DNA from: a virus
DNA length: 29,387 nucleotides
Virus record (IMG/VR): IMGVR_UViG_3300006921_000089
Location: 1-29,387 of that record
Strand: one strand, 5' to 3'
How positions within the stretch are numbered: the stretch's first letter is position 1; each line of letters starts with the position of its first letter. Both the position numbers and the translations under genes were made by a program. Shown here piece after piece: positions 1,654-26,077 of the stretch. The notes beneath the pieces were generated by a model, which worked only from the letters and a program-made list of their open reading frames with translations, did no database searches and was not told where the DNA came from.

Positions 1654-4600
1654 ATGGGAATGTACTCTACGATTAGTCCTTTATCTGGGAAGCTATATGA
1701 CTTTGAAATAGAAGGTGAAACACCTAATCAAGAAGAATTTGATAAGATTCAAAACTATATTTCTACTGATGGAAATTATAATCAAGAAGTCCCCGCTGCG
1801 CCCGAAGAAGATGAAGGCGGATTACTAACTTTTGGTAAGTCTACTGCTGGAGGATTTTTATCTAGTCTAGCTCAAATTCCCGGAGGTATATCTGCATTAG
1901 GAGAATATGTTGGTGGCTATGATATAGGCTCTACTGATTTTGGTAAAGCTGCTCAAAACTGGTCTAATGAAGCAGCGTTAGGCTTACAAGATACTTTTGA
2001 TATGAATGAAAGTATATCAAGTAAATCAGGTCAAGCTGCTGGTTCATTGCTTTCTTTCTTTATTCCCGGAACATTTGTGGCTAAAGGAGCCTCTTTATTA
2101 GGCGCTGGAGCAAGAGTAGCTGGAGCATCTGCTTTAGGAACGATGGCAACGCAAGGTGCAGCTTTACAAACATCTGATCAATTAAATAGAATGGCTAATT
2201 TTATTGAGAATGGTGGTGAAATTGATGAACAAACTAAAAGAGATGCAGTTGGTTTAAGTGCACTGTTAGGAACAACCGAGGCATTGCCTTTTGCTCCTAT
2301 GTTCAGAACACTTGGCACTACAATGAGAATACTCAAAAAGGTTCCTAAAGCCGATATAGATAAAGCATTAATGACGATAGGTGGTAAATTAAAAAGATCC
2401 TTTGGTGCTGGTATTGCAGAGGGGGCGCAAGAACTAGGTGCTGGAATTGTTCAAGATTTGATTGAGCAAGGTTTATATAATCCTGACCTTGAGGTAGGAC
2501 AAAGTGCTTACGATGATGCTGTATACGGTGGTGGTGCAGGTGCTGCTTTAAACTTAATTGTAGATAGCGTTAGAGGTAGGCAGTTAAATAAGTTTTATAA
2601 AAAAGGAATGCAACTAGACGAAGACCTTAAAAACTTAAATAGAGAAGCTACACAACGTCAAAAGAATTATGAAAATTATGCCGAGTCTTTGAAGCCTACT
2701 TTGCTATTAGAAGGACCTAAGAAAGACATACCTGAAACACAAGAGCAACGTCTCCTTCAAGGGCCTAGTCAAAAGATAGAAAAGTCTATAGCACCAAGAG
2801 CTATAGAGGACTTAAGGACTAGAGGAGAGAAAAGTGCATCAGCAACTATGGCCGCCGCTAGAGAAACCACTCAGCCATTAAATAATATTTCATTGCAAAA
2901 CTTACCTAAAGACGAGGCTTTAAGAATTGCACAACGTAGACAAATGCGTGGAGCTGATCCAAGCGCAGATGTATCTATTGATGAATTAGAAAATACTATA
3001 GGCGCTTCAGCTGCAAGACGAGAGACAGCAAAACAAAAACCAATATTAACTGAACAAGAAAAAGATATTTATTACTCTCCATCTGGTCAAGAAAACCAAA
3101 TGACAGATCAAGAAGTGGATTCAAAAAACAAAGAAGCTTCAATAATAGTGGAAGACCTTGCTGTTAATGGCAAGTTAAATAAAAATACTTTAAGAAAAGC
3201 ATTGAACGATAGTTTTGGTGGATCAATTAAAATAACTAATACAGATGTTGATACTTATTTAAAGTTATTGGAAGAAGATGGAGTTGTTTTAAAAGATAAA
3301 AAAGGTAGATATGTAAAGGCCGATCAACGAGCGTTAGACATTAAAGCCAAGTCAGAAGCTATTAAGCAAAGAGGTAAAGAAATACTGAACCTGCAGAATA
3401 AAGCTATGTCAGAAGAAGAGATAGATAATTTAGCTATAGAATACATGGCACTAAAAAATGAAGCCGATGCATTAGAGTCGGCCTCAGAGAAAGCTAAGAC
3501 AGAAAAAACAGAGCAGGTAAAATCTGAAGACGTTATTCCTGACTACACATCTAAAAGAACATCAGATCAAGCCTCAAAATCTCCATATACAGATGCCTAT
3601 AAGTTAAAATTAACTTCTGTGCTTAATAATTTAAAGCAACAATTAAATGATATGGGTCTTGGCGATATTAGATTAGAAGGCGAATCTATTATTTCTAACC
3701 AATATGGCAAAGAAGATGCTTCGTTAGAAGGTTATTTTGGCTCTACCCCTGAAGGAAAACGTATTATTGGACTGGCGATGGATTTGTATGATCCTAATCT
3801 TACAGAGGCTCAGTTAACAAAAAAACTTTCTGGCGTTATGAACCATGAGATTATACACGCTCTTAAAAACATGGGAGCGTTTACAGATGCAGAATATGAC
3901 ATCCTCGTTAAGGCGGCCATAAAGAGGAAGTATGTTGGATTAGAAAAAGGTAAGTTTGTTAAAAAAGAATATTCTTATATGGAAAGAGCAAGCGCACTTT
4001 ATAAAGACCAAGGATTGACTGAAGAAGGAATACAAGAAGAAGCCGTAGCAGAAATGTTTCGTGACTACGCAGATGGTAAATTAAAAGTTGTTGCAAAGCC
4101 AAAAAGTATATTTGATAAGATAATCAGATTCTTAAAAGCAATATTTACTAGCAATTATGATGCTGGATTTACTGAGTCAAATCAAATATTTGCAAACATT
4201 CTTTCAACTAAAACAGAAGTTGAAATCAAAAGAAAACAATCTGTTCCAAAGTCTGCTAGAAGTTTAACAAAATACTCTACCGCTGGTATAGCTGCCGGGT
4301 ACATAAGACCTGAGCTAGGTAACACAGAAAGAATAAAACAATCATTTAAAGATGTAACAACAAGAATAGATGCCCTAACTGAAGCCTCTGAAAAATTATA
4401 TCAAGGCAAAATAAACTACGCACAATATGATAAGTTAGTTAATGATGTAAAGCCTATAGTTCCTTATGAAACTGTTCCTGCTCCTGCAACAATTAATGAA
4501 ATGAGAGAGGCTTTAGCTGGAGAAAAGAAAAAAGCAATTATAAACAAATTACAAGAAATACCTGAAGGAACAAGAATAAAATTAAGATTGGATATTCCAG

Positions 4601-7600
4601 CTTACACAACAAAAGGCACATGGGTTCCAACTATACATAATATGGCAGGGAAAGCTATATCACATGAATCTACTGCTATAATAACAAATGCAGACTTTAC
4701 AATGTCTGAAGCAGATCAAAATAAAGGATTAGATATAGCTAGAAGAAAGCCATTTGGTGCTGAATTTAGAGAAACAGGAGATATTACTAAAGCTAAAAGA
4801 ATGACAAAATCTCCTTATGCTACAATTTCTGGTGATTTAGTTCAAACAACTCCTGATAATTCTTTTGCAGAAGCTCAAGCCGCTATGAATGATCCTACAT
4901 TTATACAAGTTGGCTTTGATCCTGAAAGACATTCTTATTTTTACGATAGAACAACAACACAACCAGTTGTTTCAGCGGAGCGTGTTATACAAGTTGGACC
5001 ACTTGTACTAGCTAAAAACCCTGTGTTTGAAGGCAAAGAACAATTTAAATACTCTAAAATATCAAATAAGCCACAATCATTAGAAAATAGATTGTTAGGT
5101 TTTATAAGAGATAATCCTGATGGATTTACTGTAGACCCAGATACATTAGAAGTTCCTAACAAAGGCTTTGCTGTGGCCCCAGTAAAAGAAGCTGAAATGG
5201 TTATAAGAGCAGAAAATCTTACTCTTGATGATGTAATGCAATTTGCTAAAAACTTAAAATTAATGACAGAAATATCTGGTAAAAAACTATATGCTGGTGG
5301 ATGGGCATCAGATGGAATATATTATTTAGATGCAACTATGGTTATAGAAGACCTCAATGAGGCTCTTTATGTTGCTGAAGAAGGTAATCAGTTAGCAATA
5401 TTTGATTTAGGAGAGTTTAATGAAATCCAAACACCAGAAGGAGTCGAAGGACTCAAAAATGCCGGTACTTACAGTAGTGAAGCCAGAGCAATCAGTGGAA
5501 GAGATATACGAAAACTTGCTGAAGAATTTTCAAAGGCAAGGGATAGAGGTTCTGCCGAGCAAAAAATAGATAAAAAGTATTCATCTATAGCAAGAGCTAA
5601 ATCTACCCTTGATCCAAATGGTAGACCATTAATTGATAGCACTATTGTTAATGAATATGATAAAAAAGGAAATATCCTACCTCAACCTGAGTATCAAACT
5701 GATCCTACAAAAGCTAATATAGCTGTAGCTAATAAAGTTCTTAAATTAGATGCTCTTGCCAATCATCAAATTAAAAGAGGCGGTATAGTATTTGATATTC
5801 ATTCAAAAAAAGCCGTAGAAAGAGAAGAAGCTAGGGAAAACGTAGCCATTATGATGGCGGCTGAAGCTGAAAAAGCTTTAGAGCAAGGCGATAATGCCAT
5901 TGGCTGGTATGACAAAACGTTAAAAGCTGCTAAAAAAGCCGTATCAATTATACATCCTGAAATATTAACAGATAAAGATGCAAACTTAGCTTTTGATTTT
6001 GCTTTATCAGTTACATCAAATGGCATGGGCGTATTATTTAATTTTAAACATGCTGAAGAACAATATGCTGCATGGAAAGCATCTACAAACGGCAGATTTC
6101 CTAAAAAAGGCTGGGGCAAGAGATCATCTGCAATGAAAAAAGCATTTTTATTTTATAATGCAATGAAAGATAATGGAGTATCAACTCAAGAATTTATAGA
6201 TTTTATGGACATGGAAACAACTCCTAGTCAATTAAAACAAAATCAATTTGTAAAAGAATTAAAAATTACGATATCAGGTGGAGAATCAGCCAACACGCCA
6301 GTTACGGGCGCTTTTGTAATAGGGCCTAAGATAGGACATGGCTTTTATCAAAACTTACGAGGAAATTACGATAACTTGACAATGGATATATGGTTTATGA
6401 GAGCCATAAACAGATTGACTGGTGACGTATTTAAAAAACCACCTACACAAAAAACATTAGACAGAAACCTAGAAAGAGTTTTATTGGCTCTTGATGGAAG
6501 AAAACAAAGCGCAAAACAAAACGAAGAGCCTACTGATAATGAATTAACAGAATTAGATAGAGAGCTAATAGACAGAACTCAAGAAGCATTGAGTATGGAT
6601 ATAACTAATGCAAATAATGCTTTACTTTTTTCTGAACAATTTGTTAAGGAGTATCAATCTTTTAGAAAAGAATTTGAAAGTGAAGGATACCAAGCAGGCA
6701 ATATGAGATTTGGCACTAAACTGCCTGACAAATCAGAATTACAATTAGCTACTGAAACACATTTTAATAATACACAAACGCAAGAGCAAGAAGCTCCAAG
6801 AGGCGCGGCTGATAGAGCCGCTATGCGAGAAATAGTAAATAGAGCAAGAGCTATATTAGAAGCAGATACTGGAATTAAAATTACTAATGCAGATTTTCAA
6901 GCATTGTTATGGTACGCAGAGAAGAGGTTTTTTGAGAAGCAGGGTGTTTCAAAGGGCACAGGCGATGACAATGACTATCTTGATGGAGCAATATATTTAT
7001 TAAAATTGAAAGGATTTGAAAATGGAGAAATCTCAGATACACTCCCCGAAGCAGAGCGAACTAGAGTCTATAGTAGAATCAGTGCCGGAAGAGGAGATGG
7101 ACAACTTCGCGAAGGCGATGATTCAATTATTGAAAGAGAACAAAAAGAAGAAGCTCTCCCAGTAGACCCTGACTTTGATCCTTATGAAAATTTACCTGCA
7201 GAAGAAGCTTCTAGACTTGAAGAAGCTAGTTTAGATTATAAATATTCTCAAATAGCAGGAAATCCAAGAGCCTTAGATGACCCTAACTATCCAATAAGAC
7301 TGCCTCAAAGATTTTTAGGCAGAAAAACTGCAGGATTAGGCGGATATAAATATAAACCATCTTATCCATATGGAAATCCAAATCAATATGGTTATGCAAA
7401 GACTATGAACGGCGTAAATGAAATAGTTGTTGTGCCTCAAGGAGATCATTTTCCTTTAGAAAATAGAAAAGGTAAATATGGTGGATATGGTTATCAACAT
7501 ATTTTTGGAGAAAGATTTAATGAGGATGGCATTAAGCTGCCTACTCACGCTGAAAGTATACTAAAATACCACACTGTTATTGATGGTGATCCATTAAATT

Positions 7601-10600
7601 TACTATTTGATACAATGGAAGAATACAGAAAATACAACAGAGATATATCAGAGGGTCTTTATAAAGATGGCTCTATAAGAAGACCTAAAGATTATGGTAT
7701 AAGAGTTTTTCCTGATGGTGGTGTAGGCAATAATGACATTAGAATTGAGTGGGACAATGCTCCTTTAGCGTTGCCTGTGAAGATGATACCTAATGCAAAT
7801 GGCAGATTTCCAGACGGCTCTTCTATGTCAAAAGACAAATATGGGAAGCCTTGGACAAGACAAAATCCTAGACCTCAAGAGATAAAGCCTCAAGAAAGAA
7901 CTCTTGTTCTTTCATTAAAATTTGAGCCAAAAGGATTTAAATCAGTAAAGAAAGTTTCTCCAAAGAGTTTTGCTGATAACGTTGCCCAAGCTTTTGCTCC
8001 AAGAGAATATGAGTGGAGGTCTTTATATCAAGTTAGAACTTTTTTTACCAAGCCACAGAATACAGCAATAAAAGATAAGTTTAAATATTCTACTATTAGC
8101 TCTAACCCAGCACAAACAACAAGCCCTAACTCAGAAGAGTTTGTTCAAGACATGAATCAAAAAGCTCAGAATATGACTTATGATAATTTGTCTAAATTCA
8201 TAGCTAAAGGTTTGGGTGTTTTTTATGAAGAAGATGTTGCTAAGGCAAGAGCCCAGAGAATACTTACATATTTTCAAGATGCCATGTTACCCGTTGGGTC
8301 TATGATAGACGAGTTAAGAAAGAATGGCTTTACTATAACAGATGCTATGGACTCTTATATGCAAGAGGCTAACTATTCAGGAATAGTAGGAGATAAGGTT
8401 ACTAAAGTACAAGAAGAGTTATTCGAGCCTATGATTAATGTAATGGACACATTAAATATTAGTGAAGAGAAAATACAAGAATTAAGAGACATAAAAGGTT
8501 CAGCAGGCTCTACTGGATTTTACGACAGTATTGAAAAAGATTATGTTGGTAAAAAATTAGCTATGACAGATGCCGTTTTATACGCATTTCATGCAAGACA
8601 AAGAAACGCATATATAAAGCAAAAAACTGGAGGCAAAACAGTCACAGGATCAGGAATGACTGGCACTGAGGCTGATCAAATTATTGATTGGTATAATAGT
8701 TTAGATAAAACAGAAATTGCTAAATTTGAAGAAATAAGAGAGTTTGCTAGAAAAATAAATGAAGACACTATAGATAGACGTATAGAGGCAGGTTTATTAC
8801 CGGCAGATGCAAGAGACCCTAACAGACAACCTCCTATTATTATTTACACTGATGGTTCTTATGTACCGCTTCAAGGCGACAGCGACATAGAAGTTGAGTC
8901 TATATTAGATAGTCAGTACGGAAGGAAGAGAGTATTTACTAACTTTTTTGGAGCAAAAGGTAGGGAAGATAAATCAGCAAGAGGTAGAGCAGGCATAAAC
9001 GATTATGCTGAAAATATTGTTGCATCATTGATGGCACAAAATAATAACTCTATAGACAGAGGCGAAAGAAATAAAGTAGGACAATCTTTTGGTAGGCTTG
9101 TTGAGGGCCTTGAAGAACAACCTGATGGCAGTATGGCTATAAACGACTCTCTTGCAAAAGAAATGAAAGAGATTGCTGAAGAAATAACAAATCTAAACAG
9201 TCAGCAAAGAAATCAAAGAGGAGTAAAGCCAGAAAATATTTTTACATATAAAGAAAATGGAGTAGAGAGAGATTTTCTTATAAAAGACCCAAGAATAGCT
9301 AAGTCTATGAACGGCGCTTTAACACCACAACAAAATGCCGCAATATTTAGATACATGGGAAAGTTTAACAGATTTCTATCTGCGGTAAATACAACCTATA
9401 ACCCGTCATTTGTTATTCCAAACTTTGCAAGAGACCTTGAGACGGCAGGCATAAATGCACAAGAGTATGACGAAAAGGGTTTTACTAAAGAAGTAATGAA
9501 AGGAACTCCTTCAGCAGTTATAGGTATTGGTAAATTATTATTTGATAAAAATGCAGTGAACAAATGGACAGATATATATAAAGAGTATGTTTCTGCTGGT
9601 GGAAAGAATGCCACTAACCAAATGGGAGATGTTAAAGATCAGATAGATAATATTGATAATATAATAGGAGATATATCTGATAGTGGTATTAAACAAAAAT
9701 TAGGATTAAATAGAAATCAATTTGTAGGTAAGAATGCTAGATCACTGCTATCTATGTTAGATAATGCAAATACTGCAGTTGAGAATGGTGTCAGGGTATC
9801 TTTGTATAAATCACTTCGTGATAGAGGCGTGTCTAAGTCAAGAGCTGCGTTGGCAGCGAGGAACATCACTGTTAACTTTGCGAAAGGCGGAGAGAATAAA
9901 GCAGTAATGAATAGCATGTATTTATTTTATAATGCTTCTTTACAAGGTTCTATGGCACTTGTTAACGCGGCTACTAGATCATCCAAAGTAAGAAAAATGT
10001 GGGCGGGATTAATGGTGTACGGCATTATGCAAGATACTATTAACGGACTATTTTCTGGAGATGAAGACGAAGATGGTATTAGTGATTATGATGAGATACC
10101 AAGACATATACTTGAACACAATATAATTGTACCAACTTTAGGTCTTACAGGCGACAAGCATATAACAATCCCAATGGCTTATGGTCTTAATATGGCAGTT
10201 AATTTTGGTAGAAGTTTGAGTAGGATGGGCAGAGGCGAATACACCCCGGGCGAAGCAATGAGGAGTATCGTTGGAACAACTGTTGAAAGCATTAGTCCTA
10301 TAGGTGCTTATGATAACTTCTTAAACTTCGCAGCCCCTACAGTATTTGACCCATTTATATCAGTAGGAATAAATGAGGATTACAAAGGCGATCCTATTTA
10401 CAAAGAATCGCCTACCTACGCATCTGTAGCAAAAGCAAACAGTTCTCAATATTGGTCTAATACTAGTTCTATAGCTAAGACAATAGCTTCTAGTGTTAAT
10501 AGCTTAACTGGTGGAGACGATATAAAAGGCGGACTAATAGATATGTCGCCTGACATTATAGAGTATTGGTTTGGAACTTTTACGGGTGGGGCAGGAAGAT

Positions 10601-11049
10601 TTGCGATGAGAAGCCTTGAAGCTCCCGTAGACATATACGATGCACTACAAGGAGACTTTGAAGGCAGTCTAATAAACAGTATACCTTTAGCAAGAAAGGT
10701 TATAACAACTCCGTCTCCAAGAGCAGACACGGGTAATTATTTAGATAACAGACAAGACCTATTTACGTTAATAGCACAACTAGATATGGCAAAGAGGTCT
10801 GGGGATAAAGAAGCAGTCGCATCTATCTACGAGAATAATAAGAAACAAATAAGTATAGTTGGAAGAATGAAAGCCATAGATAATGCAAGAAATAGGATGC
10901 AAAGGCAGATAAAAGAGATTGAAAGAAATCCACAAATACCTGAGAATACAAAAAGAAAAATTATAAGAATTAGAAGAGATAAGATAAACGAGCTTCAGCA
11001 AATGGGTCTTATTCTTATGAGGTCTGCGGGATATAAAAAGGCAGGCTAG
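1654..11049 (+). CDS. Giant polyvalent ejection protein with HExxH metallopeptidase and LPD38-like region (3131 aa)
   Basis: One uninterrupted frame of 3131 codons fills about a third of the window. Residues about 55-190 hold Gly/Ala-rich hydrophobic segments, as in membrane-inserting ejection proteins. Residues about 493-556 look like a winged helix (ending LLEEDGVVLKDKKGRYV). A zincin follows: H731-E-I-I-H735 in NHEIIHAL, with E800 in EEAVAEMF as probable third ligand. Around 1945-1949 GYGYQHI resembles nuclease-like domains of polyvalent proteins (weak). Near 2583 NPSFVIPNFARD fits the LPD38 type. A hydrophobic helix lies near 2785-2808, and the tail is basic and helical. Short KYS motifs recur between segments (873, 1132, 1308, 1863, 2144). 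Polyvalent proteins of this type are thought to enter the cell with phage DNA and to counter host functions. It is the last gene of the plus-strand late operon. Its TAG stop is part of a palindromic repeat. Confidence 0.8.
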   Translation: MGMYSTISPLSGKLYDFEIEGETPNQEEFDKIQNYISTDGNYNQEVPAAPEEDEGGLLTFGKSTAGGFLSSLAQIPGGISALGEYVGGYDIGSTDFGKAAQNWSNEAALGLQDTFDMNESISSKSGQAAGSLLSFFIPGTFVAKGASLLGAGARVAGASALGTMATQGAALQTSDQLNRMANFIENGGEIDEQTKRDAVGLSALLGTTEALPFAPMFRTLGTTMRILKKVPKADIDKALMTIGGKLKRSFGAGIAEGAQELGAGIVQDLIEQGLYNPDLEVGQSAYDDAVYGGGAGAALNLIVDSVRGRQLNKFYKKGMQLDEDLKNLNREATQRQKNYENYAESLKPTLLLEGPKKDIPETQEQRLLQGPSQKIEKSIAPRAIEDLRTRGEKSASATMAAARETTQPLNNISLQNLPKDEALRIAQRRQMRGADPSADVSIDELENTIGASAARRETAKQKPILTEQEKDIYYSPSGQENQMTDQEVDSKNKEASIIVEDLAVNGKLNKNTLRKALNDSFGGSIKITNTDVDTYLKLLEEDGVVLKDKKGRYVKADQRALDIKAKSEAIKQRGKEILNLQNKAMSEEEIDNLAIEYMALKNEADALESASEKAKTEKTEQVKSEDVIPDYTSKRTSDQASKSPYTDAYKLKLTSVLNNLKQQLNDMGLGDIRLEGESIISNQYGKEDASLEGYFGSTPEGKRIIGLAMDLYDPNLTEAQLTKKLSGVMNHEIIHALKNMGAFTDAEYDILVKAAIKRKYVGLEKGKFVKKEYSYMERASALYKDQGLTEEGIQEEAVAEMFRDYADGKLKVVAKPKSIFDKIIRFLKAIFTSNYDAGFTESNQIFANILSTKTEVEIKRKQSVPKSARSLTKYSTAGIAAGYIRPELGNTERIKQSFKDVTTRIDALTEASEKLYQGKINYAQYDKLVNDVKPIVPYETVPAPATINEMREALAGEKKKAIINKLQEIPEGTRIKLRLDIPAYTTKGTWVPTIHNMAGKAISHESTAIITNADFTMSEADQNKGLDIARRKPFGAEFRETGDITKAKRMTKSPYATISGDLVQTTPDNSFAEAQAAMNDPTFIQVGFDPERHSYFYDRTTTQPVVSAERVIQVGPLVLAKNPVFEGKEQFKYSKISNKPQSLENRLLGFIRDNPDGFTVDPDTLEVPNKGFAVAPVKEAEMVIRAENLTLDDVMQFAKNLKLMTEISGKKLYAGGWASDGIYYLDATMVIEDLNEALYVAEEGNQLAIFDLGEFNEIQTPEGVEGLKNAGTYSSEARAISGRDIRKLAEEFSKARDRGSAEQKIDKKYSSIARAKSTLDPNGRPLIDSTIVNEYDKKGNILPQPEYQTDPTKANIAVANKVLKLDALANHQIKRGGIVFDIHSKKAVEREEARENVAIMMAAEAEKALEQGDNAIGWYDKTLKAAKKAVSIIHPEILTDKDANLAFDFALSVTSNGMGVLFNFKHAEEQYAAWKASTNGRFPKKGWGKRSSAMKKAFLFYNAMKDNGVSTQEFIDFMDMETTPSQLKQNQFVKELKITISGGESANTPVTGAFVIGPKIGHGFYQNLRGNYDNLTMDIWFMRAINRLTGDVFKKPPTQKTLDRNLERVLLALDGRKQSAKQNEEPTDNELTELDRELIDRTQEALSMDITNANNALLFSEQFVKEYQSFRKEFESEGYQAGNMRFGTKLPDKSELQLATETHFNNTQTQEQEAPRGAADRAAMREIVNRARAILEADTGIKITNADFQALLWYAEKRFFEKQGVSKGTGDDNDYLDGAIYLLKLKGFENGEISDTLPEAERTRVYSRISAGRGDGQLREGDDSIIEREQKEEALPVDPDFDPYENLPAEEASRLEEASLDYKYSQIAGNPRALDDPNYPIRLPQRFLGRKTAGLGGYKYKPSYPYGNPNQYGYAKTMNGVNEIVVVPQGDHFPLENRKGKYGGYGYQHIFGERFNEDGIKLPTHAESILKYHTVIDGDPLNLLFDTMEEYRKYNRDISEGLYKDGSIRRPKDYGIRVFPDGGVGNNDIRIEWDNAPLALPVKMIPNANGRFPDGSSMSKDKYGKPWTRQNPRPQEIKPQERTLVLSLKFEPKGFKSVKKVSPKSFADNVAQAFAPREYEWRSLYQVRTFFTKPQNTAIKDKFKYSTISSNPAQTTSPNSEEFVQDMNQKAQNMTYDNLSKFIAKGLGVFYEEDVAKARAQRILTYFQDAMLPVGSMIDELRKNGFTITDAMDSYMQEANYSGIVGDKVTKVQEELFEPMINVMDTLNISEEKIQELRDIKGSAGSTGFYDSIEKDYVGKKLAMTDAVLYAFHARQRNAYIKQKTGGKTVTGSGMTGTEADQIIDWYNSLDKTEIAKFEEIREFARKINEDTIDRRIEAGLLPADARDPNRQPPIIIYTDGSYVPLQGDSDIEVESILDSQYGRKRVFTNFFGAKGREDKSARGRAGINDYAENIVASLMAQNNNSIDRGERNKVGQSFGRLVEGLEEQPDGSMAINDSLAKEMKEIAEEITNLNSQQRNQRGVKPENIFTYKENGVERDFLIKDPRIAKSMNGALTPQQNAAIFRYMGKFNRFLSAVNTTYNPSFVIPNFARDLETAGINAQEYDEKGFTKEVMKGTPSAVIGIGKLLFDKNAVNKWTDIYKEYVSAGGKNATNQMGDVKDQIDNIDNIIGDISDSGIKQKLGLNRNQFVGKNARSLLSMLDNANTAVENGVRVSLYKSLRDRGVSKSRAALAARNITVNFAKGGENKAVMNSMYLFYNASLQGSMALVNAATRSSKVRKMWAGLMVYGIMQDTINGLFSGDEDEDGISDYDEIPRHILEHNIIVPTLGLTGDKHITIPMAYGLNMAVNFGRSLSRMGRGEYTPGEAMRSIVGTTVESISPIGAYDNFLNFAAPTVFDPFISVGINEDYKGDPIYKESPTYASVAKANSSQYWSNTSSIAKTIASSVNSLTGGDDIKGGLIDMSPDIIEYWFGTFTGGAGRFAMRSLEAPVDIYDALQGDFEGSLINSIPLARKVITTPSPRADTGNYLDNRQDLFTLIAQLDMAKRSGDKEAVASIYENNKKQISIVGRMKAIDNARNRMQRQIKEIERNPQIPENTKRKIIRIRRDKINELQQMGLILMRSAGYKKAG

Positions 11050-21704: not shown

Positions 21705-22868
21705 TTAGGCTACTTTGAGGTAAGTGGTCTCTCCAATGGGAGCCTCTTCCCCTCTCATATCGCTTGATACCCAAAGGATAGGATATCCAACATCTTGCTG
21801 AGGATAATCGCCAATGCCCATGTCAGTAAAGTAAATGAAGTTATCGACATTGATATTGTTCTCAGCAATATAATCGAAGACGGGCATTACTCTTGTACCG
21901 CCTCGACCTTTACATGATATGTCCTCAATCTGATCGCCTTTCTCATACCTGACAACATCTTGAACATCATAGTCGCATGTAATGATTGTGACACTTTCAG
22001 CACCTGAGCTTTCAGCGATAGCATTCAGCTCGCCCAAGAAGTGGGATAACTCAATACTTGAAACTGATCCGCTAGTATCGATGCCAACAACAATGTCTCC
22101 GCATCCGATCTTGTTTGATACGGGAGTGACAACCTCGTTTAAGTACCATTGTCTGCGATTAGGTCTGCGATAAGAATATCCCTCAGGCTGATCTCCGCCA
22201 ACAAATCTGCGAAGTACATCTTTCCAATCAATCTGAGACCTCTTCATCTCGTCAATGATTTCCTTGATGTTAGCGGGAAGTTTACCCGCCTCAGTCTTCA
22301 TTGAGTTGACCGCCATAACAACCTGAGCATTGATTGTTGCCTCTTCAGATTTGATCTGATCTTCAGACATACCACCGCCCTGATCTTCAACATTGCCCCA
22401 CTCCTGAGGTTGAGGCTGACCGCTACCGCCACCGCCGTTTCCATCATCGCCCTGATCTTGTTTCAGTAGGTCGTAAATTTTTTCTGCTGACATACCTTTG
22501 AACTTGTCATCAATCAAAGCCCCCTCAGGAAGAACAAGACCTGACTGAATTATTATTGGATTGATCGCATAATCACATGCAATATTCCATAACTCAGCAT
22601 CTCTTTTGCCCATCCTTAAATGATGCTTTAGGATACGATGGTAAGCCTCATGAACTTTAACTCCATCCAACTCAGCCTCAGATAAGGCATCAGTAAATTC
22701 TGCATTATAGAAAATACTTTTGCCGTCAGTTGCCATAGTAGGAAGAGAACTTTTCTCAACCATTGGCATTTGATAAAGGACTGAGGCATAAAAGCCCCAA
22801 CCTTTTGAAAGTTTATCAAGCATAAGCCTGACCTTTGATCTTGCGATCTTCCTTGGTAAATCATGCAT
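21705..22868 (-). CDS. VWA-domain protein with HExxH metallopeptidase-like region, MoxR partner (DUF2201-like, 387 aa)
   Basis: The N-terminal half contains H73-E-A-Y-H77 in a helix, the zinc-binding motif of the peptidase-like domain seen in DUF2201 proteins. A Gly/Gln-rich flexible linker covers about 138-168. The C-terminal half is a von Willebrand A domain with the metal-ion site D264-T-S-G-S268 (VVGIDTSGSVS) and later YFTDMG. Such proteins pair with MoxR-type AAA+ ATPases, here encoded directly upstream, as in RavA-ViaA or APE2220-type pairs that remodel or activate other proteins. In the phage, the target is unknown. The ribosome site TAGGAGTGC is shared with the MoxR gene and follows a junction palindrome. 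Confidence 0.8.
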   Translation of the reverse strand: MHDLPRKIARSKVRLMLDKLSKGWGFYASVLYQMPMVEKSSLPTMATDGKSIFYNAEFTDALSEAELDGVKVHEAYHRILKHHLRMGKRDAELWNIACDYAINPIIIQSGLVLPEGALIDDKFKGMSAEKIYDLLKQDQGDDGNGGGGSGQPQPQEWGNVEDQGGGMSEDQIKSEEATINAQVVMAVNSMKTEAGKLPANIKEIIDEMKRSQIDWKDVLRRFVGGDQPEGYSYRRPNRRQWYLNEVVTPVSNKIGCGDIVVGIDTSGSVSSIELSHFLGELNAIAESSGAESVTIITCDYDVQDVVRYEKGDQIEDISCKGRGGTRVMPVFDYIAENNINVDNFIYFTDMGIGDYPQQDVGYPILWVSSDMRGEEAPIGETTYLKVA

Positions 22869-22875
22869 ATTTGCA

Positions 22876-22902
22876 CTCCTAAAAGTTAAAGTTAACTTCT
22901 AG
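22876..22902 (-). repeat. Junction palindrome copy 6
   Basis: On the minus strand the element is TAGAAGTTAACTTTAACTTT, then TAGGAG. It starts with the TAG stop of the MoxR gene and ends in the AGGAG ribosome site of the VWA gene. It thus sits exactly between the two partners. Confidence 0.7.
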
Positions 22903-23945
22903 GCAACGAGATATTTCCCGTTGCCCTTTGCAGATGCCCACAATCTGACATCTTTATTTTGCTTAAGACTGTTGTCCCTAGATAATGCATCCTTAAGAAC
23001 AAAAGCTTGAAACTCCTCATTAGGTAATCTTTTGAGGTATTTCAAAATGTTGCCTATGTTCTTATCGTTAGCCTTAGTTGATAACGATGAACAAAGTGCA
23101 TACATAATCGCAGGCTCTTCAACAATCTCAGCAGTATCAGGGCTTGCGATCAGCTTATCAATGTCAGGACATTTGTCATGTACATCCATATGAGTTTTAA
23201 GGTTTGCATAAGCGGGGCGACCAATTTGACCGCTGATAGCCTCAGCCATTGCCTCGTCATCCAAGTCCCAATTCATGATCTGTGCTGACCTCTCGATTGA
23301 CCTTGGAGTTGGATAAGCATTCACTCCAACTTTAAACTGATGCAAGAACTCAGGCTGAAATCTCAACCACGATATAACTCTGTGATCAACACCGCTTTTA
23401 GCGAAGTATCCGCAAGTGTCCTCGAGGTTTGGCTCAATCTCTAGGAACGTAAGTCTATCGATCAAGTGGCTTGGCATTGTATTAGTCCCCGCCTTATCTG
23501 ATAGCTTGTTCCCCGCTGACATTACATAGCATTTTGTTCTGTCTAGCTTGTACTCTCCAACTCTATATTCGTCAGCAATTTGAGCGAATATATTCATGTT
23601 AAGTACGGGGCTTTGAGGCAACTCATCGAAGAAATAAAGTACACCTTTAAAGCCCTCAGCCTCTAGCTGAGCCATGCGATCAGCATCTATATACCAATCA
23701 GGCTGAAGAGTAATCATCTTATCGCCCTGAGGCATTCTCATACCGCCAATGTCTGTAGGCTCTAGCTGAGCAAGTGCAATATTCTGCATGTAAAAGCCCA
23801 AGTCCTGAGCAATCTGTTTTGCTAGTGCAGTTTTACCAATTCCCATACTACCATCTAAATGGAAAGTAATTGGCTTAGTTGAAGTTTGAGCAACATTCTT
23901 TTTGATGCCCTCGACAATGATCTTTTTTGCTAATGATAATCTCAT
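22899..23945 (-). CDS. MoxR-type AAA+ ATPase (348 aa)
   Basis: The core AAA+ motifs are present: Walker A GSMGIGKT (32-39), Walker B VLYFFDELPQ (D107, E108), sensor 1 Asn146 in SAGNKL, and the probable arginine finger R164 in LIDRL. The insert TDIGGMRMP is typical of the MoxR clade. MoxR proteins form hexamers that act as chaperone-like unfoldases on complexes containing VWA-domain partners, here the next gene. The C-terminal lid part is helical. The ATG follows directly after the TAA of the gene before, with AGGAGTGC inside that gene's end. The substrate and role in infection are not known. Confidence 0.85.
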   Translation of the reverse strand: MRLSLAKKIIVEGIKKNVAQTSTKPITFHLDGSMGIGKTALAKQIAQDLGFYMQNIALAQLEPTDIGGMRMPQGDKMITLQPDWYIDADRMAQLEAEGFKGVLYFFDELPQSPVLNMNIFAQIADEYRVGEYKLDRTKCYVMSAGNKLSDKAGTNTMPSHLIDRLTFLEIEPNLEDTCGYFAKSGVDHRVISWLRFQPEFLHQFKVGVNAYPTPRSIERSAQIMNWDLDDEAMAEAISGQIGRPAYANLKTHMDVHDKCPDIDKLIASPDTAEIVEEPAIMYALCSSLSTKANDKNIGNILKYLKRLPNEEFQAFVLKDALSRDNSLKQNKDVRLWASAKGNGKYLVA

Positions 23946-25122: not shown

Positions 25123-25434
25123 TTAAACTCCCTCGCTATTTGTTATTTTTATTAACTCATCTACATCGTAATTTGATCCATTGATCCAATACTCATGTAA
25201 CTCTTCCCCAATTATGGAAGTTACCGCTTTAGATATTGGATTGCATACACTTGAAACAATTCTAGGATTTAATTCGTTGACCATCTCCATTGTTTCATAA
25301 TTGCCTTTATACTTAGCACTTGATCCATCATCCTCAGCATATGAGGAATGAACATCTGCGATATTTGCAAAGTTATAAGCATCAGCTAAAAGCCTTAGTA
25401 ACTTGATCTCGTCTTGATTTAATTTCTTGTACAT
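25123..25434 (-). CDS. Hypothetical acidic protein, first gene after the structured leader (103 aa)
   Basis: An acidic helical protein: MYKKLNQDEIKLLRLLADAY, then YAEDDGSSAKYKGNYETM, and helices SSVCNPISKAVTSIIGEEL. No family is recognised. AGGAG lies eight bases before the ATG, and the 3' strand of the proposed leader helix ends about 36 bases upstream of the start. Control by the leader RNA is therefore possible. Confidence 0.6.
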   Translation of the reverse strand: MYKKLNQDEIKLLRLLADAYNFANIADVHSSYAEDDGSSAKYKGNYETMEMVNELNPRIVSSVCNPISKAVTSIIGEELHEYWINGSNYDVDELIKITNSEGV

Positions 25435-25469
25435 TATTGTACTCCTGAGTTGTTGATTGATTTGTTAGT

Positions 25470-25657
25470 GTCAGCCACTATTGAGAAACCCGTTTAATTT
25501 TAAACTTCTTATGTTCAGTCCATATCGCTCAGATCATCTCTGTGAATTGTGGGGGGCGGTTCACTCTTGCCGATCTTTAATTCTGCCTAGTTTCCCATGT
25601 AGGTCAGATCGGGATGTTTGTGGTTCGCATCAAACGGGTTGCCAAATAGGGGCTGAC
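25470..25657 (-). ncRNA. Candidate structured RNA or 5' leader closed by an interrupted 21-bp helix
   Basis: On the minus strand, GTCAGCC (25657-25651), CTATT (25649-25645) and AACCCGTTT (25640-25632) pair in nested order with AAACGGGTT (25495-25487), AATAG (25482-25478) and GGCTGAC (25476-25470). One mismatch and one 4x4 internal loop interrupt the helix. Inside, CCGATCT/AGATCGG (7 bp) and GTGAA/TTCAC can form branches. A TTGCAT-17-TATATA promoter starts transcription about eight bases before the helix, and the gene at 25434 begins soon after it. This could be a cis-regulatory leader or an independent small RNA. I do not recognise a known family. Confidence 0.5.
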
Positions 25658-25671
25658 TTGGTCGCACTATT

Positions 25672-25700
25672 TATATAGCAATTGGCTAATGTATATGCAA
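25672..25700 (-). promoter_or_regulatory. Sigma70-type promoter of the MoxR-VWA operon and leader RNA
   Basis: On the minus strand TTGCAT (25700-25695), a 17-base spacer, then TATATA (25677-25672). A run AATAGTGCG follows, similar to AAAAGTGCG behind the 14852-14824 promoter. Transcription would start near 25665. Confidence 0.6.
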
Positions 25701-25787
25701 GCCCAAATATATAAATAAATGTAAATAATTGTAAATGTTCCTTGTAACTGTTGCTGACGTTCAAATCTTTTTTTTCTAAACTTCTGT

Positions 25788-25807
25788 AAAAGTTAAATTA
25801 AACTTTT
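25788..25807. repeat. Junction palindrome copy 7
   Basis: AAAAGTTAAATTAAACTTTT (one mismatched base pair in an otherwise full palindrome) lies next to the terminator of the zinc-ribbon gene and shares its TTTT. A TTCTG half copy lies at 25782. No gene ends inside this copy. Confidence 0.65.
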
Positions 25808-25833
25808 GGGGGCAATAAAAACTGCCCCCAAAA
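25804..25833 (-). terminator. Intrinsic terminator after the zinc-ribbon gene
   Basis: TTTTGGGGGCA (25804-25814) pairs perfectly with TGCCCCCAAAA (25823-25833), 11 bp, around an 8-base loop. It ends the minus-strand zinc-ribbon gene (stop at 25838). The U-tract on the minus strand is short (TTTT within AAAAGTTTAA), and termination could work in both directions. Confidence 0.75.
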
Positions 25834-25837
25834 TATT

Positions 25838-26077
25838 TTATTCTAGATGCAGTTCGATATCGTCATGATCAAAAGGCTCTTCACACTCAGGACAAAACTC
25901 AGTATCATGTAATATAGAACTTGGGAATGTTGCCCCGCATCCATAATAAGGGCATCTGATATCACTTGGCTTTATGTCGTTTTCGATCTCCTGATCTAAT
26001 AGGATTTCGTGTATTTCTTGCTCTAGTTCTTTTATTTTGTTTTCGTATGTTATTTTTACTGTAAGTTTTTTTCTCAT
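25838..26077 (-). CDS. Zinc-ribbon protein (79 aa)
   Basis: A basic start and a charged helix (residues 11-37) lead into a C4 ribbon: C42-x4-C47 (RCPYYGCG) and C62-x2-C65 (FCPEC). The end is acidic (DHDDIELHLE). Four cysteines with this spacing would hold one zinc ion. It may bind nucleic acid, for example as a phage transcription factor. The first gene of the minus side facing the terminase operon, it ends at a strong terminator and has only a weak ribosome site (GAAAGCGAGACA). Confidence 0.7.
   Translation of the reverse strand: MRKKLTVKITYENKIKELEQEIHEILLDQEIENDIKPSDIRCPYYGCGATFPSSILHDTEFCPECEEPFDHDDIELHLE

Follow-up and report, generated by a model that had tools for sequence, protein, structure and literature searches.

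The pRNA of phage phi29, which is built on a three-way junction, forms part of the packaging motor. The put RNA of phage HK022 comprises approximately 70 nt and folds into two stem-loops (PMC9378689), and HHphage of haloviruses HF1 and HF2 is located 13 nt upstream of an early gene (PMC3088659). Here we describe an RNA from a virus record of 29,387 bp, which was analysed over its whole length (the window) and in which the RNA is single-copy. The minus strand at positions 25470-25657 encodes a real structured RNA of approximately 190 bases, with an established fold, strand, genomic place and family. It belongs to a new family of phage 5′-leader RNA, termed R1, that is carried by marine phages and is absent from Rfam 15. 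Large, strongly conserved RNA folds with no assigned function are few, and R1 adds one.

Identification of a structured RNA on the minus strand

An earlier note on this DNA had described three nested complementary segments at the two ends of the region, and these were confirmed at 25651-25657/25470-25476 (7 bp), 25645-25649/25478-25482 (5 bp) and 25632-25640/25487-25495 (9 bp). In the 9-bp block, the first seven pairs are general among homologues and the pairs past those occur only in some. A repeat search likewise returned arms at 25470-25498 and 25629-25657 (29 nt, 83% complementary, approximately 130 nt between them). The predicted folding energy of the minus strand from 25657 to 25470 is -55 kcal/mol, compared with -37.6 ± 4.2 kcal/mol for 200 shuffles (z -4.16), none of which folds as well, in agreement with the view that such nested pairing is unlikely to arise by chance. 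The region had also been judged to carry no credible protein gene. This judgement stands, as a 65-amino-acid plus-strand open reading frame at 25481-25678 (TTG start) is disrupted by many indels in the homologues and is therefore not credible.

The strand is fixed by searches with a covariance model of the family, in which complete copies score 190-240 bits in the sense and 33-41 bits in the antisense orientation (190 versus 37 bits for the window RNA). In the alignment of R1 homologues, G-U cells number 64 and A-C cells only 2, and the selected molecule is therefore the minus-strand RNA. The strand, operon and leader position first assigned to the RNA are the same in all homologue contigs that reach far enough.

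Secondary structure and covariation

The RNA consists of a closing helix of approximately 21 bp that leads to a three-way junction, from which two arms with nearly invariant loops extend (Table 1). In most homologues two extra G-C pairs (25642-25643/25484-25485) connect the P1 blocks, such that P1 is nearly continuous. The first arm is formed by H2, H3, P3 and P4; some members carry an additional insert between P4 and P3. The second arm, P6-P5, ends in the GAUGA loop; P6 is invariant and therefore falls outside the covariation test. The RNA also has a variable 3′ strand, which is longer in L027 and L032.

Table 1. Helices of the R1 RNA and neighbouring features, in window positions.
Feature	Positions	Strand	Remarks
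Structured RNA, core of R1 family	25470-25657	-	Fold z -4.16; R1 190 bits, E ~1e-40; covariation in 18/44 pairs
P1a 5′ strand GUCAGCC	25651-25657	-	Pairs with 25470-25476; compensatory changes at outer two pairs
P1a 3′ strand GGCUGAC	25470-25476	-	Compensatory changes
P1b 5′ strand CUAUU	25645-25649	-	Pairs with 25478-25482; A-U/G-U/G-C and U-A/A-U changes
P1b 3′ strand AAUAG	25478-25482	-	Covariation
P1c 5′ strand AACCCGU	25634-25640	-	Pairs with 25487-25493; two-sided changes in three pairs
P1c 3′ strand ACGGGUU	25487-25493	-	Covariation
H2 5′ strand GCG	25626-25628	-	Pairs with 25556-25558; GCG:CGC, GAG:CUC, CUG:CAG among homologues
H2 3′ strand CGC	25556-25558	-	Covariation
H3 5′ strand, 2 bp	25620-25621	-	Pairs with 25563-25564; both covary after adding divergent sequences
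H3 3′ strand	25563-25564	-	Covariation with divergent sequences added
P3 5′ strand CCGAUCU	25606-25612	-	Pairs with 25570-25576; compensatory changes in 5/7 pairs
P3 3′ strand AGAUCGG	25570-25576	-	Covariation
P4 hairpin CCUA(CAUGGGAAAC)UAGG, conserved UGGGA in loop	25586-25603	-	4/4 pairs covary
P6-P5 arm: CCA/UGG, conserved 7x7 internal loop, 4-bp P5, GAUGA pentaloop (25534-25538)	25520-25552	-	P5 4/4 pairs covary
AC-rich linker, Shine-Dalgarno AGGAG at 25442-25446	25435-25469	-	AC/AU-rich; no terminator
Promoter-like TTGCAT-17-TATATA, ~15 nt before P1	25672-25700	-	Weak consensus match
First operon gene, 103 aa, no family	25123-25434	-	Other genes replace it in some homologues
MoxR-type AAA+ ATPase	22899-23945	-	phrog_1297 ATPase, 5e-64
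VWA protein, DUF2201_N metallopeptidase and DUF2201 VWA	21705-22868	-	Pfam 1.2e-39, 6.7e-23

The structure was drawn, in part by eye and in part after RNAalifold, from an alignment of 21 distinct homologues (A2) that was itself made without the covariance model. Among these, 99.1% of base-pair cells are paired, and pairing falls to 39-45% when the partner is shifted by one base. Two-sided changes occur in 18 of the 44 pairs, compared with 9.4 ± 1.8 in shuffles, and none of 500 shuffles reaches this number. Kinship alone can lift related sequences above shuffles; in view of how many distinct pair types occur and of the covariation of inner stems, it is unlikely to be the cause of this signal. 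The covariance model was built from the 21 A2 sequences. With 28 sequences, four of them divergent and not used for the model, the covarying pairs rise to 23, and all four P4 pairs and both H3 pairs covary in this enlarged alignment (the four divergent sequences and a few close copies added), although these counts lean to the structure because the alignment was fitted to the model. Compensatory changes among homologues, one of the tests on which the earlier note had staked its proposal, are therefore strongly evident.

The loops that are invariant in A2 (CAAACAUCC, UGGGA, GCAAGAG, CCCCCACAAU and GAUGA) argue for a specific partner or a tertiary fold. A loop GGG and a C-run, which are possible pairing partners, are both invariant. 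We considered and rejected a GUUUG/CAAAC hairpin with a loop pseudoknot, which is missing from divergent members and in which the C at model column 43 instead covaries with column 133. Also rejected were short start-stop codon series inside the RNA (AUG GAC UGA and AUG GGA AAC UAG), which are lost in L048 or L027.

Distribution of the R1 family

Covariance-model searches, and scans of IMG/VR with exact and gapped DNA patterns derived from the RNA loops, identified the RNA in approximately 43 IMG/VR viral contigs, of which two hardly differ from the window. The model search added seven matches on five more-divergent contigs, plus a cut-off fragment (L208). Scores of 69-73 bits were obtained for L122, L124, L125, L202, L203, L205 and L206, none of which was used in model building.

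In Rfam 15 the window RNA has no match at gathering thresholds or at E values up to 10, and searches with L058, L022 and L122 gave only chance matches far below gathering. A blastn search with the RNA against named phages and plasmids returned nothing. The R1 model also gave no match in 299 bacterial genomes sampled from one phylum, a weak result obtained with stricter filters and no positive control, and eight pattern matches in genome contigs that might have indicated bacterial hosts of the RNA look like chance. Among named phages with related TerL or MoxR proteins, no credible match was found in HTVC023P, HTVC027P, 023Pt_psg01, DSL-LC04 and CRP-7 (the first 50 kb of each) or in Pag-Yong1 (41 kb). 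The RNA is not described in the literature that was searched, which consisted largely of papers available without subscription.

Genomic context

In every contig that is long enough, the RNA sits between the terminase genes, which are on the opposite strand, and the MoxR-VWA operon. The first gene after the RNA varies among homologues, and MoxR and VWA are constant. The MoxR proteins of R1 phages form two groups that are approximately 37% identical, compared with 87-100% identity for TerL, and the RNA is kept with both. In the phage VWA protein (21705-22868), the DUF2201_N domain, a putative metallopeptidase, retains an HExxH-like motif (VHEVxHRxLKHH). A WYL_2-like gene was considered as the partner of the RNA and rejected, being undetected in many R1 loci.

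A promoter had been proposed directly upstream of the RNA on the same strand, and this proposal is only partly borne out. By eye, a similar site (TTGYAT-17-TATAWW) precedes P1 by 10-15 nt in most members, but a consensus scan detected no excess of promoters over shuffles (27 compared with 32.5), and a subgroup (L022, L023, L024, L034, L038, L039 and L046) departs from the usual promoter spacing. Directly upstream of the promoter-like site, at 25705-25740, repeated TTTACA/ATTTACA boxes with a spacing of approximately 10 bp, present in several homologues, are a possible regulator site. Farther upstream is a hairpin (25804-25833) that resembles a terminator on both strands and would isolate the leader. 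It follows a reading frame (25838-26077) for a 79-amino-acid protein that has no family match and whose Cys pairs look zinc-ribbon-like by eye. Elsewhere in the window, a single open frame of 3131 amino acids (1654-11049) is preceded by a frame of 492 amino acids that has no Pfam or PHROG match.

No terminator was found between the RNA and the start codon. Nor was a consistent anti-Shine-Dalgarno platform detected, the Shine-Dalgarno sequence being 0.15-0.92 unpaired across homologues.

Sister-phage leaders and hammerhead ribozymes

In some phages whose TerL is 83-96% identical to that of the window, no R1 match was obtained, although short contigs may end before the slot. Where the contigs of sister phages extend as far as the slot, it holds other leaders, and a hammerhead ribozyme usually follows. 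As the TerL proteins of these phages are up to 96% identical, the operon itself does not require the R1 RNA.

Type B leaders occupy the R1 slot and are followed by a hammerhead (L078:4056-4265, L083:4590-4890, L102:4180-4465, L223 and L224; alignment A5), and some members begin with CAGCCYCNNUUUGGCA, as does R1. Upstream of the MoxR-VWA operon there are also type C leaders, again followed by a hammerhead (L089:2417, L092:3993, L090:3745 and L188), and type D leaders (L117:3090, L127:914 and L138:1311), after which no hammerhead was seen. Types C and D are conserved leader motifs that differ in sequence. A GC-rich leader at L128:4483-4775 starts with CACAGCCCCUGAUUUGGCAACC, which resembles the 5′ strand of R1, and terminates in a hammerhead (CUGAAGA) that overlaps the Shine-Dalgarno sequence; its own fold is no better than shuffles. 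Fold z values for single examples (type B, -3.0; C, -2.1; D, -2.5; L128, -0.8) indicate that only some of these leaders are well supported as structured.

The hammerheads of types B, C and L128 sit directly before the Shine-Dalgarno sequence, and many R1 phages have others at later positions within the operon. Those in intergenic gaps of the MoxR-VWA operon (L022:7984-8038 on the minus strand, L025, L029, L030, L034, L035, L047, L065 and others) mostly have an open stem III, and many lie directly before a Shine-Dalgarno sequence. One that was checked with Rfam matches Hammerhead_3 (RF00008) with a score of 36 bits (E 8e-7), which falls short of the curated threshold of 48.5, and standard annotation would therefore miss it. 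Hammerhead-like motifs whose stem III may be closed (CUGANGAGACC...GGUCGAAACAUUGAGCAGU...) were observed in L222 (minus strand, ~8709), L030 (plus strand, ~3559) and L035 (minus strand, ~2755). In the window, the same pattern detected no hammerhead core with stem III.

Possible functions of the R1 RNA

We tentatively favour a cis-acting function, at a level just short of probable, in which the R1 RNA would be the 5′-terminal leader of its own message and would be recognised by a partner. The transcription start, the partner and the effect on the operon are elements that we infer. Transcription of the MoxR-VWA operon would probably start approximately 8 nt before the RNA, the compact domain would be made first, and the closing helix would bury the 5′ end. 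With no terminator after the domain, the AC-rich linker, the Shine-Dalgarno sequence and the first gene would come next. The loops might be bound by a specific partner, whether a small molecule or a protein encoded by host or phage, and this binding would set the stability or translation of the operon mRNA. The closed 5′ end may in addition shield the message from 5′-end-dependent decay. This reading is favoured by the covariation, by the strand, by the position at the head of the same operon whichever first gene follows and with either MoxR group, by the promoter-like site of most homologues and by a terminator-free, AC/AU-rich linker. Against it count the failure to find an expression platform, downstream genes that do not point to any ligand, the other leaders of sister phages and the deviating promoter spacing of one subgroup.

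Since sister phages seem capable of releasing their leader by means of a hammerhead, the main rival to a cis-acting leader is a free-standing noncoding RNA that would be made from the operon promoter, cut from the message and act in trans, a serious if somewhat unlikely alternative. A hammerhead placed between the leader and the first Shine-Dalgarno sequence, as in sister phages, would detach the leader from the message, which suits a free RNA better, and the loops are very conserved. However, the 3′ end of R1 carries neither a hammerhead nor a terminator, its linker runs into the gene, and R1 was never found apart from the MoxR-VWA operon. It is also conceivable, though fairly unlikely, that the slot at the operon head in this group of phages is a hot-spot at which unrelated structured RNAs swap, those other than R1 mostly with a hammerhead after them, and that R1 is not an ordinary leader but an exchangeable module, possibly self-processing or involved in counter-defence.

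A metabolite riboswitch controlling the operon seems decidedly unlikely. The strongly conserved, junction-built core in the 5′ leader is aptamer-like, but the absence of a detectable expression platform, whether terminator or consistent anti-Shine-Dalgarno pairing, makes a classical riboswitch less likely; no metabolic gene is linked, and other leaders fill the slot in sister phages. We consider it highly improbable that R1 acts as does HK022 put RNA, in which the nascent RNA binds polymerase, which then resists termination. Its position directly downstream of the putative operon promoter matches that of putL (PMC9378689), and such an action would be independent of which first gene follows, but the size and fold differ and a search of the operon revealed no strong minus-strand terminator. 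Sister-phage hammerheads occupy the very slot in which R1 lacks one, and R1 might accordingly be a new self-cleaving ribozyme that replaces them; this is very improbable, as sister leaders have long RNA besides the hammerhead and no Rfam ribozyme model matches. A packaging RNA would account for the three-way junction and the adjoining terminase genes on the other strand, yet is barely credible for an RNA read with the MoxR-VWA operon, away from a TerL that is a Terminase_6C enzyme (phrog_38) and not of the phi29 type. Finally, a MITE or other palindromic DNA element, suggested by the 29-nt inverted repeat around approximately 130 nt, is a remote prospect given the excess of G-U over A-C cells, the covarying inner stems, the single copy in the record and the location of homologues at one syntenic site.

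Dozens of natural variants, together with a constant genomic position and clear natural compensatory changes, make R1 a direct test of operon control in these marine phages. Its exchange with other leaders and hammerheads raises the question of why such an RNA is needed at one site.

Comparison with known RNAs

R1 resembles phi29 pRNA in its phage origin, three-way junction and proximity to packaging genes; the terminase type and operon differ, and by eye the arm loops of R1 are not complementary. Riboswitch aptamers have in common with R1 the 5′-leader location, the junction and the invariant loops, whereas R1 has no expression platform that was found and was phage-only in these searches. Type III hammerheads (RF00008) occupy the R1 slot or operon in sister phages, before Shine-Dalgarno sites, but R1 lacks the CUGANGA...GAAAC core, and the GAUGA of R1 forms a pentaloop on a 4-bp stem that covaries. 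The HK022 putL and putR RNAs, which act on RNA polymerase, differ from the three-way junction of ~190 nt in R1, and share with it a structured phage RNA at the start of an operon transcript, directly after the promoter.
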